From the NCBI RefSeq assembly GCF_001042695.1, contig NZ_AP012334.1:124001-188000 (forward strand): 64,000 nucleotides of DNA, read 5' to 3'. The notes beneath the pieces are model-generated. The model saw nothing but the letters and a program-made list of their open reading frames with translations, searched no databases and had not been told where the DNA came from. Of the stretch, positions 10,883 through 28,439 are shown piece by piece; the first letter of the stretch is position 1; each line of letters starts with the position of its first letter. A program made the position numbers and the translations under genes. Origin of the DNA: Scardovia inopinata JCM 12537 (GTDB taxonomy: Bacteria; Actinomycetota; Actinomycetes; Actinomycetales; Bifidobacteriaceae).

Positions 10883-11782
10883 ATGTTGAGTCTTAAGAAG
10901 AAAATATTTATCTCAGGACTTTCCATTCTCATGGCTGTCGGTTTGCCCCAAATTGCTCATGCGGAGACTCCATATGCCTGGAAAGACGCCGGAGTTCTCC
11001 AGAATGATGGGGAAAAGTACGAGTATCGTGGAATGGCAGATGTGACTCGTCAGGATATGGCAGCTTTTCTTTATCGGTGGGCGGGGTCACCAGCATACTC
11101 ACCTTCAACCCAAGATACAGAGAGATTCGTTGATGTTTCTTTTGCAACCCCGCATGCTAAAGAAATCTGGTGGCTGGCAAGGGAAGGAATTAGCACGGGG
11201 TGGCAGGAAGAGAATGGTACATATAGCTTCCGTGGAATGGCATCAGTGACTCGTCAGGATATGGCGGCTTTTATGCATCGGCTTGTTGGAGATGCTGGTG
11301 TTTCTTCAACTGAGAATGTATTTGCTGATGTTGATATCTATACTCCTCATCAAGAAGATATTACCTGGCTTGCTAATAAAGGCGTCAGCCAAGGATGGAT
11401 TGAGCCAGACGGAAGTAGAACATTCCGTGGTAGTCAGGCTGTAAAACGTCAGGATATGGCTGCTTTCTTATACAGGCTTGCAGGTTCTCCAGCCAGCCCA
11501 GAAAATGATAATAAATGGGTTAGGAATCGTTATGTTGATGTCAACGAATCCACTCCGCATGCGAGAGACATCTATTGGCTGACTCTGGAGAAAATCAGCA
11601 CAGGATGGATTTATGTTGCACCGAATCCCAAACCCGCGCCGCAGCCAGCTCCAAAGTATAAAGACTGTACAGAAGTATGGAGGATTCACAAGAAACCCCT
11701 TAGAAGAGGTGAGCCTGGGTATACCAAAGAGTTGGATCGAGATAATGATGGAATAGCTTGTGAAGTTCGTCCGAAGAAATAA
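10883..11782 (+). CDS. Secreted wall protein: SLH-like repeats plus Excalibur domain
   Basis: 299 residues, AAAGGAGAGG before ATG 10883. A signal peptide (KKK, hydrophobic core, cleavage near AHA-ET at about 29) is followed by SLH-like repeats. Each repeat has an FxDVxxxTPHxxxIxWL half (three copies) and an FRGxxxVxRQDMAAFLYRLAG half (three copies). After a short proline-rich linker (PKPAPQPAPK) comes a C-terminal Excalibur domain: DCTEVW, then DRDNDGIACE, a calcium-binding-like loop with two cysteines. SLH domains bind pyruvylated wall polymers. The next gene, 31 bp downstream on the same strand, encodes a polysaccharide pyruvyltransferase-family protein. Probably a wall-bound surface protein; catalytic activity is not evident. 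Confidence 0.85.
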   Translation: MLSLKKKIFISGLSILMAVGLPQIAHAETPYAWKDAGVLQNDGEKYEYRGMADVTRQDMAAFLYRWAGSPAYSPSTQDTERFVDVSFATPHAKEIWWLAREGISTGWQEENGTYSFRGMASVTRQDMAAFMHRLVGDAGVSSTENVFADVDIYTPHQEDITWLANKGVSQGWIEPDGSRTFRGSQAVKRQDMAAFLYRLAGSPASPENDNKWVRNRYVDVNESTPHARDIYWLTLEKISTGWIYVAPNPKPAPQPAPKYKDCTEVWRIHKKPLRRGEPGYTKELDRDNDGIACEVRPKK

Positions 11783-11813
11783 CAGTAACTAGAAATGGCA
11801 ATAACTAATTACG

Positions 11814-13115
11814 ATGAAAATGAATCCTAAAAAGTGGTTACGCAAAATTGTTCCGGTCAGCAACAGAGCTTTCGATAGAAAAGCAGAGGAGCTCACATCT
11901 CGGCTGGATCAGCTGGACGCCAAGCTGGATGCTCTGCACCATGATAAGGCAGCAAAACAGCGTGCTTACTATCTTGTTGCCGAGCCAGGCTATCCGAATT
12001 ACGGAGATGAGCTTATTGCCCGGGAATGGCTGAAATACCTGGCAAAAATTGCGCCAGATACCCCCGTATACCTTGACTGTACGAGGCCAGGCCCGGCCGC
12101 ATCAATTTTGCGTAACTATCATCCTCATCTGCGGGTAGTTGATACTCTTTCTCGTCTTACTTTTGAGAATAAATATGTGGCAGAAGGTGATGCTGGCAAC
12201 ATTACTGGTATTACAGATTTCATTGAGCAGGCATTTGAAGATGAAGGCGCCGCAGCCCGCTATTCGTCTGGTTTGCAGCTTATAAAATCTGAAGTTGAAG
12301 GGGTTCACTTTTTAGGCGGCGGATATATGAATGGCCGATGGATTCCCAATCTCGCTCGGTTGGAGCTAGGCAGGTGGTGTCACCACCATTCTATTCCTGT
12401 TATTGCTACTGGCGTTGGCCTTATGCCCATGATTGAAAAGACTGCAACTTATACACGACAGGTTGCACAAAATTTCAATCACTTTTCCGTGCGAGATCAG
12501 GAATCATTTGATATGTTGACTCGAGATAATGAAGGTGCTGGGAACATTGAGCTAATGCCTGATGATTGTTTTATTAATGGACTTGCTGACAGTTATGTTT
12601 CTGAATCCGATCAGCCATTTTTGCCAGATACGATGGTGTGTATTCAAACAGATTTAGTTACTGATCCTGATGCGATATATCACCATGTCCTGGAGACACT
12701 AAAAGTTTGGAATATTGGAAGGAATGATCCCATTGGAGTTGTGGAATGCAACCCTTATGTTGATTACCCAATTGTTGAAGTTTTAAAGAATCAGGGATAC
12801 ACTGTTCAGTTCTTTCCCACTGCTTTCCTACTGGAGCAGGGTTTTCCTGCTCGTCCTGGTCAGAGGTGGCTAACTACTCGTTTCCATCCTCATATCTTAG
12901 CTGCGGCTTGTGGAGCCAGAGGTTCTTTTATCACTGTTGATGATCGATATTATGGGGTTAAACATGCAGCAGTTCTACGCATGGGGTCCAGGTGGTCGCA
13001 TGCTGTACTTGGGAAAGATATTCCTCAGCCAGGTGAAGGCTTTAGCGATGCCACAAGCCCTGATCGGTATTCTGAGCAGATAAGGGCGAACGTTCGCGAT
13101 TTTTATAAAATCTAA
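11814..13115 (+). CDS. Polysaccharide pyruvyltransferase-family protein
   Basis: 433 residues from ATG 11814 (or ATG 11820); no strong ribosome site, which suggests coupling with the gene 31 bp upstream. Residues about 20-45 form a short heptad-like helix (LTSRLDQLDAKLDAL). The core has NYGDELIAREWLKYL near 60-75 (the NxGDE substrate motif of the family), a GGGYMNGRW loop, the GVGLMP segment, FSVRDQESFDML and, near the C-terminus, TRFHPHILAAACGARG with the conserved Arg/His. The family (WcaK/AmsJ/CsaB) transfers pyruvate from PEP to sugars as a ketal. Given the SLH-like neighbour, modification of a wall polymer to be recognised by SLH-like domains is a reasonable inference. PEP carboxylase elsewhere in the window is unrelated to it. 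Confidence 0.8.
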   Translation: MKMNPKKWLRKIVPVSNRAFDRKAEELTSRLDQLDAKLDALHHDKAAKQRAYYLVAEPGYPNYGDELIAREWLKYLAKIAPDTPVYLDCTRPGPAASILRNYHPHLRVVDTLSRLTFENKYVAEGDAGNITGITDFIEQAFEDEGAAARYSSGLQLIKSEVEGVHFLGGGYMNGRWIPNLARLELGRWCHHHSIPVIATGVGLMPMIEKTATYTRQVAQNFNHFSVRDQESFDMLTRDNEGAGNIELMPDDCFINGLADSYVSESDQPFLPDTMVCIQTDLVTDPDAIYHHVLETLKVWNIGRNDPIGVVECNPYVDYPIVEVLKNQGYTVQFFPTAFLLEQGFPARPGQRWLTTRFHPHILAAACGARGSFITVDDRYYGVKHAAVLRMGSRWSHAVLGKDIPQPGEGFSDATSPDRYSEQIRANVRDFYKI

Positions 13116-13274
13116 TTTTTCCCTTTTTTCCCTTTTCCCTCCAGCCTATCTCCAGAATCTGATGATGTAGCCTTCAAATTGTAAGGAATTGTTGGAATTA
13201 GGAATAATACTGCATATTTTTGTCTGATTCAGGCTAGTGTAAACAGGTACAGGAACTTAGGTGAGGTGTTACAT

Positions 13275-16200
13275 ATGCGGGAGCCATACGGACTTGGGGA
13301 TAACTTAGATAAATATGCAGGATTATCTGCCGGGGAAAATTCACAGCGGGGGACGATGCCTGCTTTTGTGCGCAGAAGAAAAGCAGAAAAAACTGTCCGT
13401 ATTCTTATGACGGTTGTCATCACCATGGCTGTTGTACTTGCCATGATCATTTCTCTCGCTTTGTCTACAAATTCTGTCAACCTCTCTTCTCAGGCAGCCG
13501 ATTTGGAGCCCTCCTCAGCTGCTCGCGTATCTAAGGCTTTCAACCGGGAATCAGCAGAAAATAAGAAAAAATCCAGCAGGCAGAAAAAACACAAGCAGCA
13601 GCAGAATTCTCGCAAGGGCAGCAGCAGCAGTGGGGCAAATACTGGGCAAAACAACAAAACTAATGAGGGCAATTCATCCACCTCTTCTTCCCGTGATTTT
13701 TCAGGCTCCCGGAATTATCGAGGACAAACACTTCCCCGGTCAATCGCCAAAACTGTTCCCAATAATGCGGTGCTGGTATCGCCCAAGCTGGCTGCTGCTC
13801 CTAACGGAACTGTCTACAATGTGATGACTGGCAAAAAGGTGACTGCACCTGCCTATTTTGGGACAGCTGCAAGACCTGCTGACCCCCTGGCCAAGACCGG
13901 CGGACAGTCTTTCAAACCCATCTCTATTGCTGTTTTGAGGCAGGAAGAGAAGAAGGATTCCCATGACACTTCTCAGTTTGCACCTGGGTCTGTCAACCAG
14001 TCAAGCTCATCTTCCAGGGGAACTGTAACATCTGCGCTGGCGGTCCGCACGCCCCAAACGCAAGCTTCACATGTTCATACCGTTTCCCTCCCGGGAAACT
14101 CTTACGGGGCTCACTGGGGAACCTATCAGGGGTCGCCTGCCTTCTATGGCAGAACCGGGTCCCTCTTTGCCCAGCAGGCTAAAGGCGTTGTCGATGTATC
14201 TCAGTGGCAGGGCTCAATCAATTGGGCTGCAGTTAAGAAGGCTGGGGTAGAGGGTGCTATCATTCGCATTGGATATGGGGTAGGCAACGCCGATAGTAAG
14301 GCTTTGTACAATATTTCTGAATGCAAGCGGTTGGGAATTCCTTTCGGTTTGTATATTTATTCTTATGCATACAATACAACCTTCGCTTACAACGAGGGGA
14401 CATCAGTTGCTAACTTGCTGAAAAAATATGGGGTAAGTGCCAAAGATCTGACCTATCCGGTTTATTATGATTTGGAAGCCTGGTCCTGGACTGGCCATAC
14501 TCGCCCAACTTCGCCCGCAGTGTATCAGTCTATTGTTAATTCCTGGTATTCTTCCATGGAGGCTGCCGGCTTCAGCCGCAGCAAACTGGGTGTATATTCA
14601 TACACGTCTTATCTCAACACCAGTCTTAATGATGCCAGCATTCATCAGAAAACTTCCTGGGTGGCGCAATACAGCGGAAATATGGGCTTTACCAACTGGA
14701 CTTCCAATTTCCGCGGCTGGCAATATACATCCCAGGGAAGTATTAGTGGGATCAGCGGGACTGTTGATTTGAATGCTTTTGGATATAAGACAAGAGTAAA
14801 TTCTGCCGGCGGGTCCTCCTCGTCTTCTTCGCCAAAGAAGGACACAAAGACCACCAAGGATAATTCCACAAATAGCAACTATAACAGGGGAATCAACCTA
14901 TCTAAACTCCCCCTGGTAACTATTCCCAATGGCAGATATTATATTAATGTCAAACATGCCGATACCATGTCTTTGGATATCAATGGGGGCAGTCTTCGTA
15001 ACGGTCAGGCTCTGCAAATCTATCAGTGGAATAATTCTACAGCTCAGCAATTTATTTTTACCAGACAGGCAGACCGCAGCTATGTTATTACCAATGTTAA
15101 TTCCGGCAAGGCTATAGATGTCAGTGGTTCCCGCACTGCGGACAAGACCAAAATACAGCAGTGGAGCCGTAATGGGGCTAAGGCTCAGAAGTGGTTCATC
15201 CGCAGCTCTGGTGATGGCTATTACCTTCAATCAGCCTTGGGCAATTGGGTTTTGGATATGGCCAATGGATCAGTCAAGAATTGTACCTCGGTCAGACTTT
15301 TTACCCCTAACGGAACCAATGCGCAGAGATTTCAGCTTGCTTCTGTGGCGACATTACCTATGGGCACTGCACTTCGCATATCCAGCGCTGTGAATCCTTC
15401 TCAGGTTTTGGATATTCCCGGGGGTTCAAAAAATAATTCAGCCCGGCTGGAGCTCTATAAGTGGCTGGGCGGCTCGGCTCAGCTGTTTACCTTGGCTCAA
15501 GTAGGAAATGGAGTATATACCATTACGAACATCAACTCCGGCAGGCTGATTGATGTTTCAGGAAACAGTTTCTCCAACGGAGCTGAAGTCCAGCAGTACC
15601 AGGCGACCGGAAGCCAAGCCCAGCATTGGCAGGTCAGAGTGTCCGGAACTGGTTCTTCTACTTCCAGCACCCCTTACTCTCCTGCTGTCCGCTATTCATT
15701 TGTGGGATCAGGGTCGGGGAAGTTCCTGGATCTTCCCTCGGGAAAAGCCGTAAATTTAGCTAAGCTGCAGATCTGGCAGAGTACGGGGACAAGTGCTCAA
15801 CAGTGGACCCTGTCTCAAGCACAAACGACTGATGCCTTGTCCTATAATCATCGTGCTGATCTGCCTGACGGGACCTATACCTTTGGATCCGGAATCAACT
15901 CCTCCTATAAGATGGATGTGAGCGGCGGATCCAGAAAGGCCGGAGCTAATGTTCAGCTTTGGAAATCCAACAATATGATGCCGCAAAGGTGGATGGTCAC
16001 ACACGATTCTCATGGGTATATTCATCTGACTAATGTCCAGTCAGGGCTTCGGTTGGATGTTCAGGCTGGTTCTTCTGCTAAAGGGACCAATGTTCGGCAG
16101 TGGAGCGCTAACAATGCTGCAGCTCAGAAATGGATTGCAGTCAGAAACTCTAATGGAAGTTTCACGCTTTATTCGGCTGTTAATCCGTCGGGTTCGTCTC

Positions 16201-16316
16201 CTGCAAGCCGAGTTTTGGATGTTCGCAATGGGGTGGCTGCTGGCAAGTCTAATGTTCAGCTCTGGGCTGCTAATGGAACGAAAGCTCAGCAGTGGTGGGC
16301 GATGAAGAAATACTAA
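13275..16316 (+). CDS. GH25 lysozyme (muramidase) with three ricin-type lectin domains
   Basis: 1013 residues from ATG 13275, preceded by GTGAGGTG; a GTG at 13266 is part of that ribosome site. The order is: a cytosolic stretch of about 35 residues, one membrane or signal-anchor helix (about 38-62), a Ser/Lys/Gln-rich low-complexity linker, and a spacer region. The GH25 domain spans about 304-500, with VDVSQWQG at its start, the catalytic YYDLEAW motif (Asp and Glu) and the closing WQYTSQG/DLNAF segment. A Ser-rich linker follows, then about 480 residues with nine QxW-type repeats (for example IYQW, IQQW, QLWK, RQWS), enough for three beta-trefoils. GH25 cleaves N-acetylmuramic acid links of peptidoglycan. 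The lectin part probably binds a wall carbohydrate. Confidence 0.92.
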   Translation: MREPYGLGDNLDKYAGLSAGENSQRGTMPAFVRRRKAEKTVRILMTVVITMAVVLAMIISLALSTNSVNLSSQAADLEPSSAARVSKAFNRESAENKKKSSRQKKHKQQQNSRKGSSSSGANTGQNNKTNEGNSSTSSSRDFSGSRNYRGQTLPRSIAKTVPNNAVLVSPKLAAAPNGTVYNVMTGKKVTAPAYFGTAARPADPLAKTGGQSFKPISIAVLRQEEKKDSHDTSQFAPGSVNQSSSSSRGTVTSALAVRTPQTQASHVHTVSLPGNSYGAHWGTYQGSPAFYGRTGSLFAQQAKGVVDVSQWQGSINWAAVKKAGVEGAIIRIGYGVGNADSKALYNISECKRLGIPFGLYIYSYAYNTTFAYNEGTSVANLLKKYGVSAKDLTYPVYYDLEAWSWTGHTRPTSPAVYQSIVNSWYSSMEAAGFSRSKLGVYSYTSYLNTSLNDASIHQKTSWVAQYSGNMGFTNWTSNFRGWQYTSQGSISGISGTVDLNAFGYKTRVNSAGGSSSSSSPKKDTKTTKDNSTNSNYNRGINLSKLPLVTIPNGRYYINVKHADTMSLDINGGSLRNGQALQIYQWNNSTAQQFIFTRQADRSYVITNVNSGKAIDVSGSRTADKTKIQQWSRNGAKAQKWFIRSSGDGYYLQSALGNWVLDMANGSVKNCTSVRLFTPNGTNAQRFQLASVATLPMGTALRISSAVNPSQVLDIPGGSKNNSARLELYKWLGGSAQLFTLAQVGNGVYTITNINSGRLIDVSGNSFSNGAEVQQYQATGSQAQHWQVRVSGTGSSTSSTPYSPAVRYSFVGSGSGKFLDLPSGKAVNLAKLQIWQSTGTSAQQWTLSQAQTTDALSYNHRADLPDGTYTFGSGINSSYKMDVSGGSRKAGANVQLWKSNNMMPQRWMVTHDSHGYIHLTNVQSGLRLDVQAGSSAKGTNVRQWSANNAAAQKWIAVRNSNGSFTLYSAVNPSGSSPASRVLDVRNGVAAGKSNVQLWAANGTKAQQWWAMKKY

Positions 16317-16566: not shown

Positions 16567-17841
16567 ATGACTTCTCAGGAATATATTCAACGGCCCTTAT
16601 TGCTTCAACGATTAATAACTGAAAAAGACCGTGATATGGCAAAAGTTATTACAGGAATATGAAGGTCCGGTAAATCATTTTTGCTATTCACAATTTTTCG
16701 GGACTACCTAATAAAACAGGGTATTCCCGAAGATCGAATTATCGCAATTGATCTGGAGACTCAAAAGAATGCGCAGTATAGGGATGCTCAAAAATTATAT
16801 TCTTATATCACTAATTTAATATATGACCGCAGCAAAAAAACGTATGTTTTTCTGGATGAGATCCAGATGGTTCCGAATTTTGAGGATCTTGTCAATGGCC
16901 TGCGGATTGATGATAATTGCGATGTCTATATAACTGGATCCAATGCTCAGCTTCTGTCGAAAGATATCAATACCCGTTTTAGGGGAAGAAGTGTTGAGAT
17001 CAGGACGTTCCCGCTTTCTTTCCAAGAATATTTTTCTTACCGGCAGGAACAGAATGTAACCGGTGCTCCAGCCGGCAGAAATGCCTTTCTTGATACGAGA
17101 AAAATATTTAACGATTACCTGGTAGAAGGGGGGATGCCGTATTCGGTTACGTTGCCTTCCATGCCAGAGAAACATGCCTATCTTAATGATATTTGTAATC
17201 TGGTTCTTTTCCGAGATATTATCGATCGGTACAAGGTCAGGAATGAAAATCTGTTGAAAGCGGTGTTTGATTTACTGTGTTCACAGATTGGGTCGTATGT
17301 CAGTGCAAATAAAGTTGCTAATACCTTAAAAAGTAATGGGTATTCTCATGTTTCCGCAGAGACAATTGGCAATTATCTTGAATATTTCTGTGATTCTTTT
17401 CTTCTGTATAAAGCTCAGCGTTACGATATTCGTGGGAAAGCGTATTTAAAGACCCTTAATAAATATTATGTAACAGATCTGGGGATTCGTAACAGTAGGC
17501 TCAATTTTCGGCAATTAGAAATTACTCACTCCTTGGAAAATCTTGTATATATCGAGCTTGTCCGCAGAGGGTACATTGTCGACATTGGAAAAAACAGAGA
17601 CAAGGAGATAGATTTTCTTGTCTCTAACGGGCAGACGGATTTTTACATACAGGTTTCTTATACAGTAATCGATGAAAAAACTCGGGATAGAGAGCTGTCG
17701 GCTTTTAATCTGCTTGACGATGGCTACAAAAAAATATTAATTACCATGGATGATAACCCTTATACTGCGCTTGATCGAGGGTATAAACAGATTAATGCTC
17801 TTGATTTTTTCCTTGATAATCAGGCCTTGGAAAAAATATGA
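16567..17841 (+). pseudogene. AAA_14/DUF4143-type ATPase interrupted by TGA inside Walker A
   Basis: From ATG 16567 (GGAGG at 16554-16558) the frame is open to 17841 (424 codons) except for one TGA at 16660-16662, codon 32. The residues around it read VITGI-stop-RSGKS, where the family has GxRRSGKS, so the stop replaces an Arg (one base from CGA or AGA) in the phosphate-binding loop. Beyond it the protein is intact: YVFLDEIQ (Walker B), YITGSNAQLLS (sensor-like), a PLSFQEYF segment typical of the family and a C-terminal DUF4143 nuclease-like domain with ELVRRGYIVDIG and EIDFLVS. A second start at 16681 would give 386 residues without Walker A. The cellular role of these ATPases is unknown. 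Base composition is more AT-rich than its neighbours. Confidence 0.8.
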
Positions 17842-21881: not shown

Positions 21882-22109
21882 GGCTGCCTATATCGTAACG
21901 TTCATATTCACTGGTGCTTCTAAAAGCATTGTATATGTCTGAGCCCCCGACAATAACCACAACACTCCTATAGTTATAGTGCCGGGCCGCAGAAAAGGGG
22001 CAACTCCTGTTGCATGGCGCCATCTGTTTCCTGTAATGACTTCTTTTTCATGCGTATTGCTAGAATAAAACCGACTAGTTAAATTGTGTGATTGCAGAGG
22101 TATCTGATT

Positions 22110-23981
22110 ATGCCAACCATGAAGTTTGCGAATATTTTGTTGGAGACGAATCCCCGGTCTGTGGCTTATCCTGGCTTGTATTGCCGGTCAGACCAGCCGG
22201 TGGTGCATGATCCCGACAGTGGTGACTGGCAGATGTATGCTGCCGGCGACTATGATTTCGCTACCTACTTCAACTCTCTGTCTGTAATAAAGTTGAGAAA
22301 ATATACTATCGCTTCAGGCTTCACTCTTCACCTGGAACTCAAAGGAGCCGCTGCTACCATCCAGGAGACATATGGAGATGCCTTTGCCGCTCATCCTCTT
22401 CCCCTTGACCAGGTTAAAGTTGACCTTGGAGCATCTGATGACTGGCAGGTTGTGGACATTCCTCTGACGGTCACCAAAGACATGATTATTGTTGGTTTTA
22501 CCATCAGTACCCAGGGTCGGGTAGCCATCCGCAACAGCTATTATGCCCTGGATTATGAGGGTTCTCTCAGAAATGTTGAGCTTGCCCTGGGAACGACCAC
22601 TTTTAAGAAAGAAAGTTTCATCATCAATAATGTGGACCTGGTAAAAAAGAATATTATTGATTCTGATGATGATATAGCCGGTCATTTCCACATGTATGTC
22701 ATTGACAACGGCCGAACCCTGGACCCGCAAGCCCTTAGCAGCCGGCGAGTGACCGTTGTTCCCAACGACAATGTGGGCGGAGCCGGCGGCTTTACCCATG
22801 CCATGATTAACGCCATGGAGCAGACACCACAGGCCACCAACATCCTTCTCATGGATGACGACGTGGCAGTTTCTCCCGAAAGCATTAAGCGAACCTACAA
22901 CCTTCTGCGGATTGTAAAGCCGGCTTATTCTGAATCAATTATCAGCGGTGCCATGCTGTCGTACGAAGTTGGGGAAGATCAGTGGGAAGACATTGGTTTT
23001 GTTGATCCGGGCAGCAATTTTGTTGCCTGCAAGCCTCCTCTGCACCTTACTCACTTTGAAGACCTAGTCTACAACGAGGTGTTCCGTCCCACGAAGAGGA
23101 TGAAGAAAAACATGTATGCAGCCTGGTGGTACTGCTGCATTCCTATTTCTGTGATCCAGAAGAACGGCCTTCCCCTGCCCTATTTTGTCCGTTGTGATGA
23201 TGTGGAATACGGCATCCGCTGCAAGACCGACTTCATCACCATGAACAGCCTCTGCGTCTGGCATATGTCTTTCCACGTTCGCTATAACTCAGCCGTGGAA
23301 CGATACCAGGCTACTCGTAATACCATGATTGCCCAGATGACATCCGGCCTTGCTCCTGATACAGATCCTTTTAAGGAAATGCATAAAAATATGAAGTTGG
23401 AGCTGAAAAAATTCGGTTATGCTGATGCTGAGCTCTGCCTGGATGCTTTCGAGGATTTCATGAAAGGCCCAGATTTTTACAGCAGGCCCGGCATCGCTGA
23501 AGAAACCTTCATGAAAGCTAATAAAGACAAGGAAAAGTTGGTCGATTTTAAGACTTTGCAGAAGCAGATTGATGCTGATCCTGATTTGGTTGGCCTCAAG
23601 ATTTCCCATATTGACCGTCAGCTGATCGATGGAGACAAGCCTCGCAGTTTTATTGACAGGGCTGAAGATGTGACCACGGATAACTGGCAGCGTTTCATTA
23701 AGCGTGAGGGTTCCGGCTATGCTGTTATTCCTCTGGCAGGATGGGTTTACCCGGCCGGTGTTATTCGTGGCAAAAAGAAGCTGGTTGCCATTGACTGGTA
23801 CAACCGCAAGGGGGCTATCAGGGTCAAAGACAGCAAGCGGTACGACCAGATTATGAAGCGTTACAAGAGGGATCTGCGTTACTACAAGGCCAACATTAAT
23901 CGCCTGCGCTATGAGTATGCCGCTTCACGCAAAAAGGTAACGTCTCTGAGCTTCTGGAAGAATTATTTGAAGATGGATTAG
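22110..23981 (+). CDS. GlfT2-like galactofuranosyltransferase (GT2 family), copy 1
   Basis: 623 residues from ATG 22110, eight bases after GAGGT; the frame also opens at TTG 22092, whose codons form that ribosome site. The N-terminal about 160 residues resemble the beta-barrel domain of mycobacterial GlfT2. The GT2 core has NDNVGGAGGFTHAM, the metal-binding LLMDDDV motif and, further on, FVRCDDVEYGIRC with the putative base Asp, then CVWHMSFH. A helical C-terminal region follows. GlfT2 polymerises galactofuranose from UDP-Galf on a lipid-linked acceptor at the inner face. The same donor is likely here but not proven. It begins the exporter operon. Confidence 0.85.
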   Translation: MPTMKFANILLETNPRSVAYPGLYCRSDQPVVHDPDSGDWQMYAAGDYDFATYFNSLSVIKLRKYTIASGFTLHLELKGAAATIQETYGDAFAAHPLPLDQVKVDLGASDDWQVVDIPLTVTKDMIIVGFTISTQGRVAIRNSYYALDYEGSLRNVELALGTTTFKKESFIINNVDLVKKNIIDSDDDIAGHFHMYVIDNGRTLDPQALSSRRVTVVPNDNVGGAGGFTHAMINAMEQTPQATNILLMDDDVAVSPESIKRTYNLLRIVKPAYSESIISGAMLSYEVGEDQWEDIGFVDPGSNFVACKPPLHLTHFEDLVYNEVFRPTKRMKKNMYAAWWYCCIPISVIQKNGLPLPYFVRCDDVEYGIRCKTDFITMNSLCVWHMSFHVRYNSAVERYQATRNTMIAQMTSGLAPDTDPFKEMHKNMKLELKKFGYADAELCLDAFEDFMKGPDFYSRPGIAEETFMKANKDKEKLVDFKTLQKQIDADPDLVGLKISHIDRQLIDGDKPRSFIDRAEDVTTDNWQRFIKREGSGYAVIPLAGWVYPAGVIRGKKKLVAIDWYNRKGAIRVKDSKRYDQIMKRYKRDLRYYKANINRLRYEYAASRKKVTSLSFWKNYLKMD

Positions 23982-23993
23982 GAGACAGATTGG

Positions 23994-24020
23994 GGCAGTC
24001 GCAGTACCGTGACTGCCTTT
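23994..24020 (+). terminator. Candidate attenuator/terminator between copy-1 transferase and wzm
   Basis: GGCAGTC (23994-24000) pairs with GACTGCC (24011-24017) across a 10-base loop and is followed by TTTATT. The stem is strong but the T-tract is short, so partial termination that lowers expression of the exporter relative to the transferase is plausible. Confidence 0.4.
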
Positions 24021-24069
24021 ATTGCTGCCGGACTGCTGCTGTTGGTAGGTGCTTTGCTAGAATGGCAGA

Positions 24070-24918
24070 GTGAATCAAGTGGAAACCAAGCTCAAATCCC
24101 GCTACGGCTATGCCTGGACGGTCCTGAAGGGACTGGTAAAAACAGATTTTAAGCTGCGCTATCAGGGGTCATTCCTGGGTATTATGTGGTCGGTACTTAA
24201 GCCGCTGATGCTTTTTGTGGTCATGTACCTGGTCTTTGCCCGCTTTCTGCGCATGACTGACGGTACCCCCACTTACCCGGTTGTCCTCCTGCTGGGAACC
24301 TGTTCCTGGCAATTCGTAATGGAATCAACTAATTCCGGTTTGAGGTCCATAGTGGACAGGGGGGATCTGCTGAGAAAAATTCACTTCCCCAACTATATTG
24401 TGGTGGTCTCAGCTACAGTTGGAGCCTTAATCAGTTACGGGATCAACCTGTTAGTGGTTCTGGTTTTTGCCTTCGTTTCTCATGTCAACTTTACCTGGCG
24501 AGTTTTGTGGCTTCCGGTCAACATCATTGAACTCTATGCCATTACTTTGGCTCTTACTATGATTATGGCCACCATGTATGCTTACTTTCGAGATATTGCC
24601 CATATTTGGGAAGTGCTCTCCCAAGTCATTTTTTACGCCATGCCCATTATTTACCCCCTGTCCTTTGTTCTGCAGCGGGGAGGTTTGATTTCTAAGTTGG
24701 GCAAATTGGAACTGCTTAATCCTTTTGCCCAGGCGATTCAGGATATTCGGCATAATCTGATTGCACCTGAAACTCAGCCTACAGTCTGGAATCTTTATGG
24801 GAACTCTTTCAAAGGTTGGTGCGGCAAACTTTTACCCATTGTTTTGACCGGATTGATTCTCTGGTTTGCTATCTGGCTGTTCAGACGCAACAGCCGCCGC
24901 TTTGCGGAGGTGATGTAA
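24070..24918 (+). CDS. wzm: Wzm-type ABC-2 polysaccharide exporter permease
   Basis: 282 residues from GTG 24070 (GTG 24079 is an alternative; the ribosome site GGCAGAG is weak). Six hydrophobic segments follow an amphipathic start, with the ABC-2 signature LRYQGSFLGIMWSVLKPL at about 30-47. It forms the channel that moves a completed lipid-linked polysaccharide across the membrane using Wzt. Its stop overlaps the wzt start (TAATG at 24916-24920). Mycobacterial Rv3783, which exports galactan, is the nearest well-known relative in role. Confidence 0.9.
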   Translation: MNQVETKLKSRYGYAWTVLKGLVKTDFKLRYQGSFLGIMWSVLKPLMLFVVMYLVFARFLRMTDGTPTYPVVLLLGTCSWQFVMESTNSGLRSIVDRGDLLRKIHFPNYIVVVSATVGALISYGINLLVVLVFAFVSHVNFTWRVLWLPVNIIELYAITLALTMIMATMYAYFRDIAHIWEVLSQVIFYAMPIIYPLSFVLQRGGLISKLGKLELLNPFAQAIQDIRHNLIAPETQPTVWNLYGNSFKGWCGKLLPIVLTGLILWFAIWLFRRNSRRFAEVM

Positions 24919-26225
24919 TGACAAATATGTTGGGGCAGGACCGCAATGTGATAGTAAAAAAGCGAAATTTTGAGGATGCTCCGGTAGTTCTCTCTGCTCA
25001 TCATGTTTCCAAATCCTTCCGCCTGCCCACTGAGCAGGCGACCGGTCTCAAGCAGGCTTTTATCAACTGGACCCGGGGGATTAAAGGTTATACTGAGCAG
25101 AAAGTACTCCAGGACATTACTTTTGATGTTCATCAGGGTGAATTCTTTGGGATTGTTGGCCGCAATGGAGGGGGAAAATCAACCCTCCTGAAGATTATTT
25201 CCCAAATCTATTATCCGGAAACCGGACAGGTGTCTGTTAAGGGGAAGCTGGTCCCTTTTATTGAACTCGGAGTTGGTTTCAATCCTGAGCTGACCGGTCG
25301 GGAAAATGTCTATCTGAATGGTGCCCTCCTGGGGTTTTCCAAGGAAGAAGTCGATGCTATGTATGACGACATCGTGGACTTTGCTGAACTGGAAGACTTC
25401 ATGGATCAAAAACTAAAAAACTATTCTTCCGGTATGCAGGTCCGCCTGGCTTTCTCTGTTGCCATTAAAGCTCAGGGTGATATTTTGGTTCTGGATGAAG
25501 TCCTGGCCGTGGGAGATGAGGCTTTCCAGCGCAAGTGCGACGACTTCTTTACTCAAATCAAGCAGGATCCCACCAAGACGGTCATCCTAGTCACTCATGA
25601 TATGGCTTCGGTAACTAAATACTGCACCAGGGCCATGATGATTGCCGGCGGTAAAATCCAGGCAATTGGTGATCCCGAGTCAGTCTCCAAGCAGTATACC
25701 TTGGCCAATCTGGAAGCTGAAAAAGCGGAGGCCAGACGCAGGCAAGAGGAGAATGGAGGCTATCCCAACGGCCTCAATGAACGCTGTCCGGTGCTTAAGA
25801 CCACGTCGGTTTCTTCTCAGGTTTGTTCCAGCTCAGACTCTTTTATTTTCGATGTCGATTACCAGTTTGATGAGCCTGGAGATTTTTACCTGGCTATAGC
25901 CCTGCATGATATTCGACGGGGAGGAATCTCTTTCGACACCGGCAACAGGAATATGAAAGTCCTGCAGCATGGCCGGCACACAGCCAGGTTCAGCCTGCCT
26001 TTGAACATTTTCAATAACGGCGAGTTTCGTCTGGTAACTTCTTTATGGAAGGAATCCCCGGATTCGGATGGGAAGGCCGAATTTGTTGCCGTTGCTATTG
26101 ATGATAATGCCTGTGATTTTGTTGTCAGAGATGACCGCAACAGCGACTATGCCCTCCTGAGCCAAAGGGCAATTCGCATCCTTCCTCTTGATCCCAGTCA
26201 AATAGAGTATATCGACAGAAAGTAG
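24918..26225 (+). CDS. wzt: Wzt-type ABC polysaccharide exporter ATPase with C-terminal extension
   Basis: 435 residues from ATG 24918, with GGAGGTGATG directly before it; the longer frame to GTG 24816 lies inside wzm. Walker A is GRNGGGKST, the signature is YSSGMQVRLAF (the Wzt-type variant of LSGGQ), Walker B is ILVLDEVLAVGD and the H-loop is VTHDM. After the ATPase core a segment with about 45 charged residues leads into a beta-rich Wzt C-terminal domain of about 140 residues, which in Gram-negative homologues recognises the modified end of the polymer. Tightly coupled to wzm. Which polymer is recognised cannot be seen. Confidence 0.92.
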   Translation: MTNMLGQDRNVIVKKRNFEDAPVVLSAHHVSKSFRLPTEQATGLKQAFINWTRGIKGYTEQKVLQDITFDVHQGEFFGIVGRNGGGKSTLLKIISQIYYPETGQVSVKGKLVPFIELGVGFNPELTGRENVYLNGALLGFSKEEVDAMYDDIVDFAELEDFMDQKLKNYSSGMQVRLAFSVAIKAQGDILVLDEVLAVGDEAFQRKCDDFFTQIKQDPTKTVILVTHDMASVTKYCTRAMMIAGGKIQAIGDPESVSKQYTLANLEAEKAEARRRQEENGGYPNGLNERCPVLKTTSVSSQVCSSSDSFIFDVDYQFDEPGDFYLAIALHDIRRGGISFDTGNRNMKVLQHGRHTARFSLPLNIFNNGEFRLVTSLWKESPDSDGKAEFVAVAIDDNACDFVVRDDRNSDYALLSQRAIRILPLDPSQIEYIDRK

Positions 26226-26234
26226 GGGCCGATA

Positions 26235-28439
26235 ATGGCAGAAAGAGATGAATGGGAGCCCGTCTTCCGCATAGTTTTCCCCCTGTCTGATGCAGAGCAG
26301 GTCATGCCCCTCTATGCCATCGACTGGACCCGTCCCAGGGTTAGCGAGGCTGCTGTAGCAACATCGGGTATTTTGCCCAAGGTTACTTTGTCAGGTATGG
26401 ATAGGGGACAGTTCAAGGAACTGATTTCCCAGGCGGCGCCGAAGCCGGTTACCTGCCAGGATTTTACTGTGGAATCGAGGACTAGCATCAGGATTATCCC
26501 CGGTGGACATATATCTCTCTGTACTTTCTTTAACGCTTTCCCTGCTTCTTATTGGCGTCGCTGGACCCAAGTCACTTCTGCCCGGCTGACTGTGGGAGTG
26601 AAGGGGAAGGGGACTTTGAGGGTTTTTAGGTCTACCGGCCGTGGATTGATCTACCAGGCAGGGGCTGATATTCCCATTGACACAGCTGCCGATACCGGAG
26701 ATACTGCCGATAGTGGCGATACCGCCGATACCGCCGGTACTGATTATGACGGAGAGCAGATTATCAACTGCCTGGTTCCCTTTGAGGGGCTTATGGATGG
26801 GGGTTATTTCTGGTTTGATGCCCAGGCTGCGGCAGAATCTGACCTAGTTATCAGCAATGCTGCCTGGTCAGTTCCAGCCGTATCGCAAGTGCCATCTGGA
26901 AGGAAATCTCCAACCCAGTCGCATATGTCTTTTGCTATGACGACTTTCAATCGGGCTTCTTACTGCATGAATCAGTTGAAAATACTGGCCCAGGCTGATG
27001 ATCTCCGTCAGCGGATTGATACTATCTACTGCGTAGATCAGGGGACGGATCTGGTCAGTCATCAGCCCGACTTTCCTTCTGTCTCAGCCAGTCTGGGTAG
27101 TCAGCTGACCTATGTGCGTCAAGGGAACCTGGGTGGATCCGGCGGCTACTCACGCGGTATGTACGAGGCAGTTAAGGCTGGCAAAAGTGACTACCTGCTC
27201 CTTTTGGACGATGATGCCATCTGCGAACCTGAAGCTATCCTTAGAGCCCTGCAATTTGAGGATTATGCTATTAAGCCCATCCTGGTAGGAGGGGCAATGC
27301 TTCATCTGGACAATCGCACCATGCTCTATACTCAGGGAGAACGGATGGATCCCCGTCGAATGTGGAATACTCCAGCTTTGGGCTTAGATTATAATTTTGA
27401 TTTTGCCGTTCAAACTTTGAGAGATACACCTGAGCGTCATCAACGAGTTGACAGCGATTACAACGGCTGGTGGATGTGCCTGATTCCCCTGGAAGTCATA
27501 AGAACGATTGGCCTTTCCCAGCCCTTCTTCATTAAGTTTGATGACATGGAATTTTGTCTCAGGGCGGGGAAGCACGGGTATCCCACGGTCTGCTTGCCCG
27601 GGGTTGCTGTTTGGCATCAGGCTTGGCACGACAAGGATCCAACCCGAGGGTGGGAAGAATACTTCATCCAGAGGAATCGGTGGATTTCTGCCCTTCTAAC
27701 TTATCCCGACCAACCGCCCCGGATGTGGTTGGAGAATCTACGGTGGGATGCCAGCGTCAATCTTCGTTTTCTCTACTCGGCTCTGGCTCTGCATACCATA
27801 GCTCTGAAAGATATCCTTAAAGGGCCGCAGTATATTGTGGACTCCTTGCCCACTAAATTAGCTCAGATCCGCGCCTTCCGCTCTACTTTCAGCGATGCCC
27901 AGGCCCAGGCGAGTTTTGAGGACTTCCCTCAACCATCCCGGCAGATGTCTGAGGCGGGCAAAGCTCGGGAAGATCTGACCATGAAAGATTACTATCGGGC
28001 AGTAGTAGGTCTCATGGGCCGGTGCGCAGTCAGCGGAATTAAAGCTGCTGGTGGGGTTCTTGGCCGACGCATAACAATGCCGTTAAGGAGAAAAAAGGGA
28101 GGAGCAGATGCGGCTCCGGCGCACGATGCGCACAAGCAGGCAGCTGTAAGTCGGCCTGATATAGCTGTCCCGGCGAAAGATGCTTCCTGGTCGGGCATTG
28201 TTCTAAGTAAACTGAACTCAGCATTGATGACAACCCCTGACGGGCAGGGAGTTTCCTGGGTAAAAAGAGATGATGATCTGGCCAGGCGAGGAATGACTGA
28301 AAATGCTCGACTGACTGTCACCATTATGAAAAACTGGAAGAAACTCTCGAGACTTTATAGGAATTATGATATGGCATCGTGTGATGTCTGGGAAAAGATC
28401 TTTGCAGCAAACCCAGCGGTCGAGGATAATAAGAATTGA
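26235..28439 (+). CDS. GlfT2-like galactofuranosyltransferase (GT2 family), copy 2
   Basis: 734 residues, ATG 26235 only 9 bp after wzt. Closer to mycobacterial GlfT2 than copy 1 by eye: NLGGSGGYSRGMYEA, LLLLDDDAICEPEAI (metal site), FIKFDDMEFCLRAGKHGYPT with the catalytic-base Asp, then VAVWHQAWHDKD and YFIQRNRW. The N-terminal barrel domain is interrupted by an Asp/Thr/Ala/Gly repeat (see 26691-26743). A basic linker (LRRKKGGADAA) divides the C-terminal part. Having two related transferases parallels mycobacterial GlfT1/GlfT2, in which one starts and one elongates the galactan (inference for this organism). Confidence 0.87.
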   Translation: MAERDEWEPVFRIVFPLSDAEQVMPLYAIDWTRPRVSEAAVATSGILPKVTLSGMDRGQFKELISQAAPKPVTCQDFTVESRTSIRIIPGGHISLCTFFNAFPASYWRRWTQVTSARLTVGVKGKGTLRVFRSTGRGLIYQAGADIPIDTAADTGDTADSGDTADTAGTDYDGEQIINCLVPFEGLMDGGYFWFDAQAAAESDLVISNAAWSVPAVSQVPSGRKSPTQSHMSFAMTTFNRASYCMNQLKILAQADDLRQRIDTIYCVDQGTDLVSHQPDFPSVSASLGSQLTYVRQGNLGGSGGYSRGMYEAVKAGKSDYLLLLDDDAICEPEAILRALQFEDYAIKPILVGGAMLHLDNRTMLYTQGERMDPRRMWNTPALGLDYNFDFAVQTLRDTPERHQRVDSDYNGWWMCLIPLEVIRTIGLSQPFFIKFDDMEFCLRAGKHGYPTVCLPGVAVWHQAWHDKDPTRGWEEYFIQRNRWISALLTYPDQPPRMWLENLRWDASVNLRFLYSALALHTIALKDILKGPQYIVDSLPTKLAQIRAFRSTFSDAQAQASFEDFPQPSRQMSEAGKAREDLTMKDYYRAVVGLMGRCAVSGIKAAGGVLGRRITMPLRRKKGGADAAPAHDAHKQAAVSRPDIAVPAKDASWSGIVLSKLNSALMTTPDGQGVSWVKRDDDLARRGMTENARLTVTIMKNWKKLSRLYRNYDMASCDVWEKIFAANPAVEDNKN
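26691..26743 (+). repeat. Degenerate 9-12-bp tandem repeat inside the copy-2 transferase
   Basis: Units of the type GATACCG/GATACTG recur about six times and encode an Asp-Thr-Ala-Gly-rich stretch in the N-terminal domain. All visible unit spacings keep the frame, so length changes would alter only a surface loop. Confidence 0.55.

Follow-up and report, generated by a model that had tools for sequence, protein, structure and literature searches.

The anchoring of SLH proteins on pyruvylated ManNAc, with CsaB as the pyruvylating enzyme, is established in Firmicutes (PMC6801904, PMC6081394). A 64,000 nucleotide stretch of the Scardovia inopinata JCM 12537 genome (contig NZ_AP012334.1, positions 124,001 to 188,000; here called the window) carries an SLH protein gene next to a gene for a polysaccharide pyruvyltransferase. 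This raises the question whether a member of the Bifidobacteriaceae anchors surface proteins by the same principle, as the initial annotation of this DNA had proposed.

An SLH/Excalibur gene lies directly upstream of a pyruvyltransferase gene

The two open reading frames are:

10883..11782, + strand: secreted SLH-repeat/Excalibur protein, 299 aa (Pfam, repeat HMM, AlphaFold model)
11814..13115, + strand: polysaccharide pyruvyltransferase of PF04230, divergent CsaB-like branch, 433 aa (Pfam, GT-B fold, invariant residues)

The SLH/Excalibur gene is the upstream one, and the gap of 31 bp contains no intrinsic-terminator-like site. The upstream frame passed the Pfam cut-offs for SLH (PF00395, 28.6 bits versus 20.8) and Excalibur (55.3 bits versus 22); in the genome-wide search SLH reached 22 versus 20.8 bits, summed over neighbours. 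The downstream frame matched PS_pyruv_trans (PF04230) with 64.7 bits versus a cut-off of 25.3. Both genes were thus found adjoining on one strand at the distance given by the initial annotation. They are unique in the 1.8 Mb single-contig genome: one encodes its sole SLH protein above the cut-off, the other its sole PF04230 match.

The SLH module keeps the equivalents of the pyruvate-contact residues and lacks the ManNAc-stacking tryptophan

The N-terminus of the SLH protein resembles a signal peptide by eye. A repeat HMM located a half repeat, two full repeats and a second half repeat (aa 42-67, 82-134, 147-200 and 217-242), followed by Excalibur at aa 259-294. Such an arrangement amounts to three SLH repeats if it is circularly permuted. 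Equivalents of Arg43 (R56, R124, R189) and of Gly29 (G106, G171, G241) as well as TPH motifs are each present three times; these three full sets fit a circularly permuted trimer. Over most of aa 50-200 the AlphaFold model has a pLDDT of 90-98. Its alignments with SLH domains, at Z 15.8 for Sap (142 residues, rmsd 2.4) and Z about 13.5-13.7 for SpaA, lie far above those with unrelated folds. On the basis of these alignments the protein is predicted to have the three-helix core and the three lobes of the SLH fold, and the last half repeat probably lies within this fold as well.

In SpaA and Sap, pyruvate is held by Arg43 and Gly29, and Trp13 stacks on ManNAc (PMC6081394). Trp13 is not kept in the window protein, where its position is occupied by the Pro of TPH. 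The Gly29 and Arg43 equivalents were kept in 222/222 SLH repeats of relatives, a count for which some bias is expected, since the repeat model was built from such repeats. Trp13 is typical of SLH repeats but not required in every one, and it varies in accepted SLH domains; its loss therefore speaks to the ligand, not to SLH membership.

The enzyme is a PF04230 protein outside the CsaB equivalog

The AlphaFold model of the pyruvyltransferase (mean pLDDT 84.9) was compared with Foldseek and VIA-align, which returned GT-B enzymes in general (UDP-GlcNAc 2-epimerases, GT4 enzymes); Pvg1p was not among the matches listed. Other PF04230 enzymes have been modelled with a GT-B fold, and the matches support the predicted fold, not a function. 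A PDB sequence search with the single sequence and with a profile gave no relevant match.

An N-x-G motif (N62, G64), R227, R356, H358 and K383 are invariant across 16 orthologues. With hhalign, R227 was aligned to the Arg that is invariant in other PF04230 proteins; R356-x-H358 and K383 correspond in motif and order only to R306, H308 and K328 of Paenibacillus alvei CsaB. The enzyme thus appears to have the Arg, the Arg-x-His and the Lys of the PEP site. In P. alvei CsaB, R148 and H308 are important for PEP binding and K328 contributes (PMC10435577). The initial annotation had classified the protein as WcaK/CsaB-type. Its membership in PF04230 stands, full CsaB identity does not: the protein scored 27.9 bits against the NCBIfam equivalog TIGR03609, which has a cut-off of 213.1. 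The activity described by this equivalog is pyruvylation of ManNAc-GlcNAc-PP-lipid.

Galactan synthesis and export genes accompany the enzyme

The galactan cluster that the initial annotation had placed at 22-31 kb and suggested as the source of the polymer was located at 22092-28439. Together with a lysozyme gene downstream of the pair, the relevant genes are:

13266..16316, + strand: GH25 lysozyme with ricin-type lectin repeats, possibly belonging to the same wall region (Pfam)
22092..23981, + strand: galactan-type glycosyltransferase (gt629), candidate enzyme for synthesis of the acceptor polymer (weak GT2 match)
24070..24918, + strand: ABC-2 polysaccharide export permease (PF01061; homologue near the pyruvyltransferase in Bifidobacterium loci)
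24816..26225, + strand: ABC polysaccharide export ATPase (PF00005; homologues linked to the pyruvyltransferase in Bifidobacterium loci)
26235..28439, + strand: GlfT2-like galactofuranosyltransferase (Glft2_N and GlfT2_domain3)

In most Bifidobacterium loci the pyruvyltransferase gene is located directly among gt629, ABC and GlfT2 genes, and homologues of gt629 flank it. GlfT2 homologues were found within 10 kb of the pyruvyltransferase in 16/76 loci (outside the window and loci L094-L110). This linkage makes galactan a plausible candidate for the polymer.

Some further features of this region were observed. In two species of the genus (window 13266-16316; L199:13634-16576), a GH25 lysozyme with many ricin-type lectin repeats is encoded beside the galactan cluster, and its lectin repeats may bind the polymer of that cluster. 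In B. magnum, a GH25 domain is fused to an SLH triplet next to the pyruvyltransferase. The lysozyme gene and the galactan cluster are separated by an ORF for an AAA_14/DUF4143 ATPase with a TTG start (window 16681-17841); the genus mate G187 has no such gene at this place, so the window ORF may be an insertion. In the second genus mate, G186, the gt629 gene is tandemly duplicated (L198:13421-17244).

The pair is conserved in part of the Bifidobacteriaceae

We searched 189 Bifidobacteriaceae genomes for both partners. A close orthologue of the pyruvyltransferase was present in 17 of them (an 18th, G163, has a distant match of 35%), and SLH triplets of the window kind in 29. Fifteen genomes have both, two only the pyruvyltransferase, 14 only the SLH triplets and 158 neither (Fisher p = 1.5e-12, kinship ignored). 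Within the main genus, 14 of the 15 enzyme-bearing genomes have SLH (p = 3.6e-14, kinship ignored), and all 18 SLH-bearing genomes have some PF04230 enzyme (p = 1.5e-6, kinship ignored). Related genomes and duplicated genes enter these counts as independent cases.

In 14 genomes the pair is located on one contig, with gaps of 0.2-5.7 kb and usually beside galactan synthesis and export genes. If the SLH genes are placed at random, the chance of a gap as small as seen is 0.1-9% per genome; adjacency of SLH and pyruvyltransferase genes exceeds chance. Recurrence in relatives together with the random-placement test rules out that the pairing is a quirk of one genome. Conservation in relatives had been set beforehand as a check on the initial annotation, and the adjacency passed it in the Bifidobacteriaceae. 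SLH triplets usually occupy the C-terminus of their proteins, which are secreted and about 440-1,200 aa long; these include the GH25 lysozyme of B. magnum and one protein with a glycosidase-family match.

Both the SLH gene and the pyruvyltransferase gene are missing from the genus mates G186 and G187. G187 still has the galactan cluster in full, with the GH25-lectin gene immediately upstream, so the two genes are jointly absent while the polymer genes stay.

SLH type follows enzyme type

Beside the window-type enzyme (in Bifidobacteriaceae and a Collinsella bin), 39/39 SLH genes are of the PH type ('TPH'). None of the 18 SLH genes beside other PF04230 enzymes in Bifidobacteriaceae belongs to this type; they have FA, FG, WA, WG and the like instead. 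Beside a sister enzyme clade, found in Dermabacteraceae and other families, positions 13-14 are mostly VF, IF or PF. The SLH genes are clustered and partly duplicated, so that independent loci number about 14 and 9 and not 39 and 18. Both systems are present in four genomes (G046, G047, G052 and G076), where each SLH type lies next to its own enzyme. Cognate pairs would predict this match, and linked inheritance of the cassettes would give the same pattern. In two genomes, G075 and G082, TPH-type SLH occurs although the window-type enzyme is missing.

A Collinsella metagenome bin contains a window-type pyruvyltransferase together with TPH-type SLH genes (L097, contig DXAO01000049.1). This could reflect transfer across classes or misbinning, and our conclusions are independent of this locus.

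The pairing extends beyond the family

The co-occurrence of enzyme and SLH exceeds expectation in a further 360 genomes of the order (11/18 versus 67/342, p = 2e-4). In Helcobacillus and Dermabacter (Dermabacteraceae), the SLH and pyruvyltransferase genes overlap (gap 0) and SLH is fused to an amidase; the pair in G350 has the same sequence as that of Dermabacter. The two genes are also direct neighbours in G324 (gap 2 bp) and G455 (gap 163 bp). In G271 and G450, SLH lies within 5 kb of the pyruvyltransferase, with a glfT2 homologue within 1.2 kb. Pairs such as those of Dermabacter, Helcobacillus, G455 and G324 belong to a separate enzyme clade of Dermabacteraceae and other families, where galactan genes were mostly not detected nearby.

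On the enzyme tree, 21 of 92 rows have an SLH gene within 10 kb, and these fall into two separate parts. The label requires at least 5 changes over well-supported branches, versus a mean of 19 after shuffling. A single origin of the pairing is not supported by these changes, in which losses are indistinguishable from gains.

Most homologues from Pseudonocardiaceae, Nocardia and Gordonia have no SLH gene within 10 kb, and several of them adjoin glfT2 and ABC export genes; pyruvylation therefore has other uses. The linkage of the enzyme to galactan genes is thus wider than that of SLH, and SLH pairing was probably added in some lineages. As a separate observation, homologues in Amycolatopsis, Haloechinothrix and relatives (L137, L139, L140, L143, L163, L164 and similar loci) adjoin glfT2 and a gene for an ABC export ATPase without SLH, and the arabinogalactan-type walls of these bacteria may carry pyruvate.

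A predicted wall-anchoring cassette and its alternatives

We consider it quite probable that the pair is a wall-anchoring cassette, in which the SLH protein binds non-covalently to a pyruvylated non-ManNAc glycan of the wall, most likely the linked galactan. The recurrence of the pairing across the family and relatives suggests that surface proteins are probably held on a pyruvate-tagged wall sugar. Judged from genomic context, the conserved adjacency and the pairing beyond the family favour the Firmicutes anchoring principle that the initial annotation had put forward.

The pyruvyltransferase would move pyruvate from PEP, as a ketal, onto a sugar of the wall glycan before or during export. 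The acceptor would most likely be the galactan that the linked GT/ABC/GlfT2 cluster synthesises and exports, and we give this assignment about an even chance. Galf cannot carry a 4,6-ketal, and a pyranose residue or another position would therefore be needed. The secreted SLH protein would fold as a three-lobed module and grip the pyruvylated residue non-covalently through the invariant Gly and Arg. Its sugar contact would differ from that of Sap and SpaA, because the ManNAc-stacking Trp13 is not kept. The enzymatic activity, the SLH binding and the role in carrying cargo are thus all predicted. The window genome encodes a single SLH protein, which has no effector domain, and its system may be residual.

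More broadly, Bifidobacteria and other Actinobacteria may bind pyruvylated non-ManNAc glycans, galactan among them, via SLH, and some species may run two SLH/pyruvyltransferase systems in which the motif at positions 13-14 is matched to the sugar modified by the system's own enzyme. This generalisation is tentative, and we rate it somewhat below an even chance.

An alternative that we regard as unlikely is that the enzyme decorates a surface glycan, the galactan or a different one, to provide charge or masking, while the SLH genes gather in the same wall-gene region and bind something else. Homologues without a nearby SLH gene are indeed frequent in Pseudonocardiaceae, Nocardia and Gordonia, where some adjoin glfT2/ABC genes, and the enzyme occurs without SLH in Alloscardovia criceti (G005) and B. 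mongoliense (G063). However, the genus mates lack the SLH gene and the enzyme together although G187 keeps its galactan cluster, the second SLH-paired clade mostly has no detected galactan genes nearby, and SLH type follows enzyme type where both types coexist.

We consider it rather improbable that the pair is a remnant in the window genome, with an SLH protein that lost its effector domain and an enzyme kept by chance or for another purpose. The solitary SLH protein and the missing pair in the genus mates would fit this, as would a secreted protein of another Bifidobacterium (G042, L037:571-2256), which is 55% identical to the window protein over the shared part and has a GmrSD_C nuclease-like domain followed by half-1-1-half SLH and Excalibur. 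The window protein has no effector domain and, given this architectural similarity, may be a shortened form. On the other hand, neither frame is disrupted, every catalytic and Gly/Arg position has been retained, and the groove residues are still present as three full sets. The G042 protein itself is a possible surface-anchored nuclease and would represent a fuller version of the window protein.

Equally improbable is an action of the enzyme on capsule or EPS, with SLH proteins binding EPS and not the wall polymer: action on EPS has been proposed for B. longum EPS-cluster pyruvyltransferases, Bifidobacterium PF04230 enzymes have been assigned to EPS clusters (PMC5412050), PF04230 matches occur in 88/189 Bifidobacteriaceae genomes and some of these enzymes adjoin other SLH types, but the window-type enzyme is linked to galactan and ABC-2 export genes.

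Relation to known systems

The predicted wall-anchoring cassette resembles the systems of Bacillus anthracis Sap and P. alvei SpaA in its SLH fold, the kept Gly29 and Arg43 and the nearby gene for a PF04230 enzyme; in P. alvei, slhA and spaA share a cluster with csaB (PMC6801904). It differs from Sap and SpaA in having TPH instead of Trp13 and in architecture, since the SLH triplet is mostly C-terminal and, in the window protein, permuted and followed by Excalibur. Unlike in the Firmicutes CsaB systems, the enzyme scores far below the CsaB equivalog cut-off, and the linked genes are those for galactan rather than for a ManNAc polymer.

Actinobacterial SLH proteins are known from Propionibacterium freudenreichii (SlpB, SlpE and InlA). 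These are located non-covalently on the wall and are released with guanidine, and the available part of that report names no pyruvylated ligand or pyruvyltransferase, unlike the pairing described here (PMC6107788). According to a review, the pyruvylation of sugars in actinobacterial walls is of use chiefly in chemotaxonomy and has no known function; the 4,6Pyr-galactan of Promicromonospora citrea demonstrates pyruvylated galactan in such walls (PMC6801904), reported without known function and without SLH binding being shown.

The idea of an SLH/pyruvate link in bifidobacteria, which the initial annotation regarded as outside the standard wall model, is not wholly new. A study of B. animalis BB-12 and B. 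longum BB-46 noted S-layer homology proteins and a pyruvyltransferase, and one sentence relates the pyruvyltransferase to S-layer protein expression in BB-46; the part of the paper available to us gives expression data only, from other strains, and contains no linkage, residue or phyletic analysis (PMC10057886). Among open-licence papers, outside which earlier work may exist, we found no link between pyruvate and galactofuranan in Bifidobacterium and none between Propionibacterium SLH proteins and a pyruvyl transferase.

The pairing offers a concrete, testable partner for actinobacterial wall pyruvylation and for the unnamed ligand of the P. freudenreichii SLH proteins. A natural set of SLH domains with a fixed pyruvate grip and a sugar contact that varies with the adjoining enzyme would let SLH ligand choice be mapped. 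Since bifidobacteria live as commensals in gut and mouth, a novel mode of surface display for their lysozymes, glycosidases and adhesin-like proteins would bear on colonisation and probiotic work.

Many SLH-triplet genes lie together in B. ramosum (G080). Its genome has 20 reported SLH-triplet matches, most of them on C12:48-128 kb (locus L082), where they form a dense array around one pyruvyltransferase and a galactan-type glycosyltransferase.
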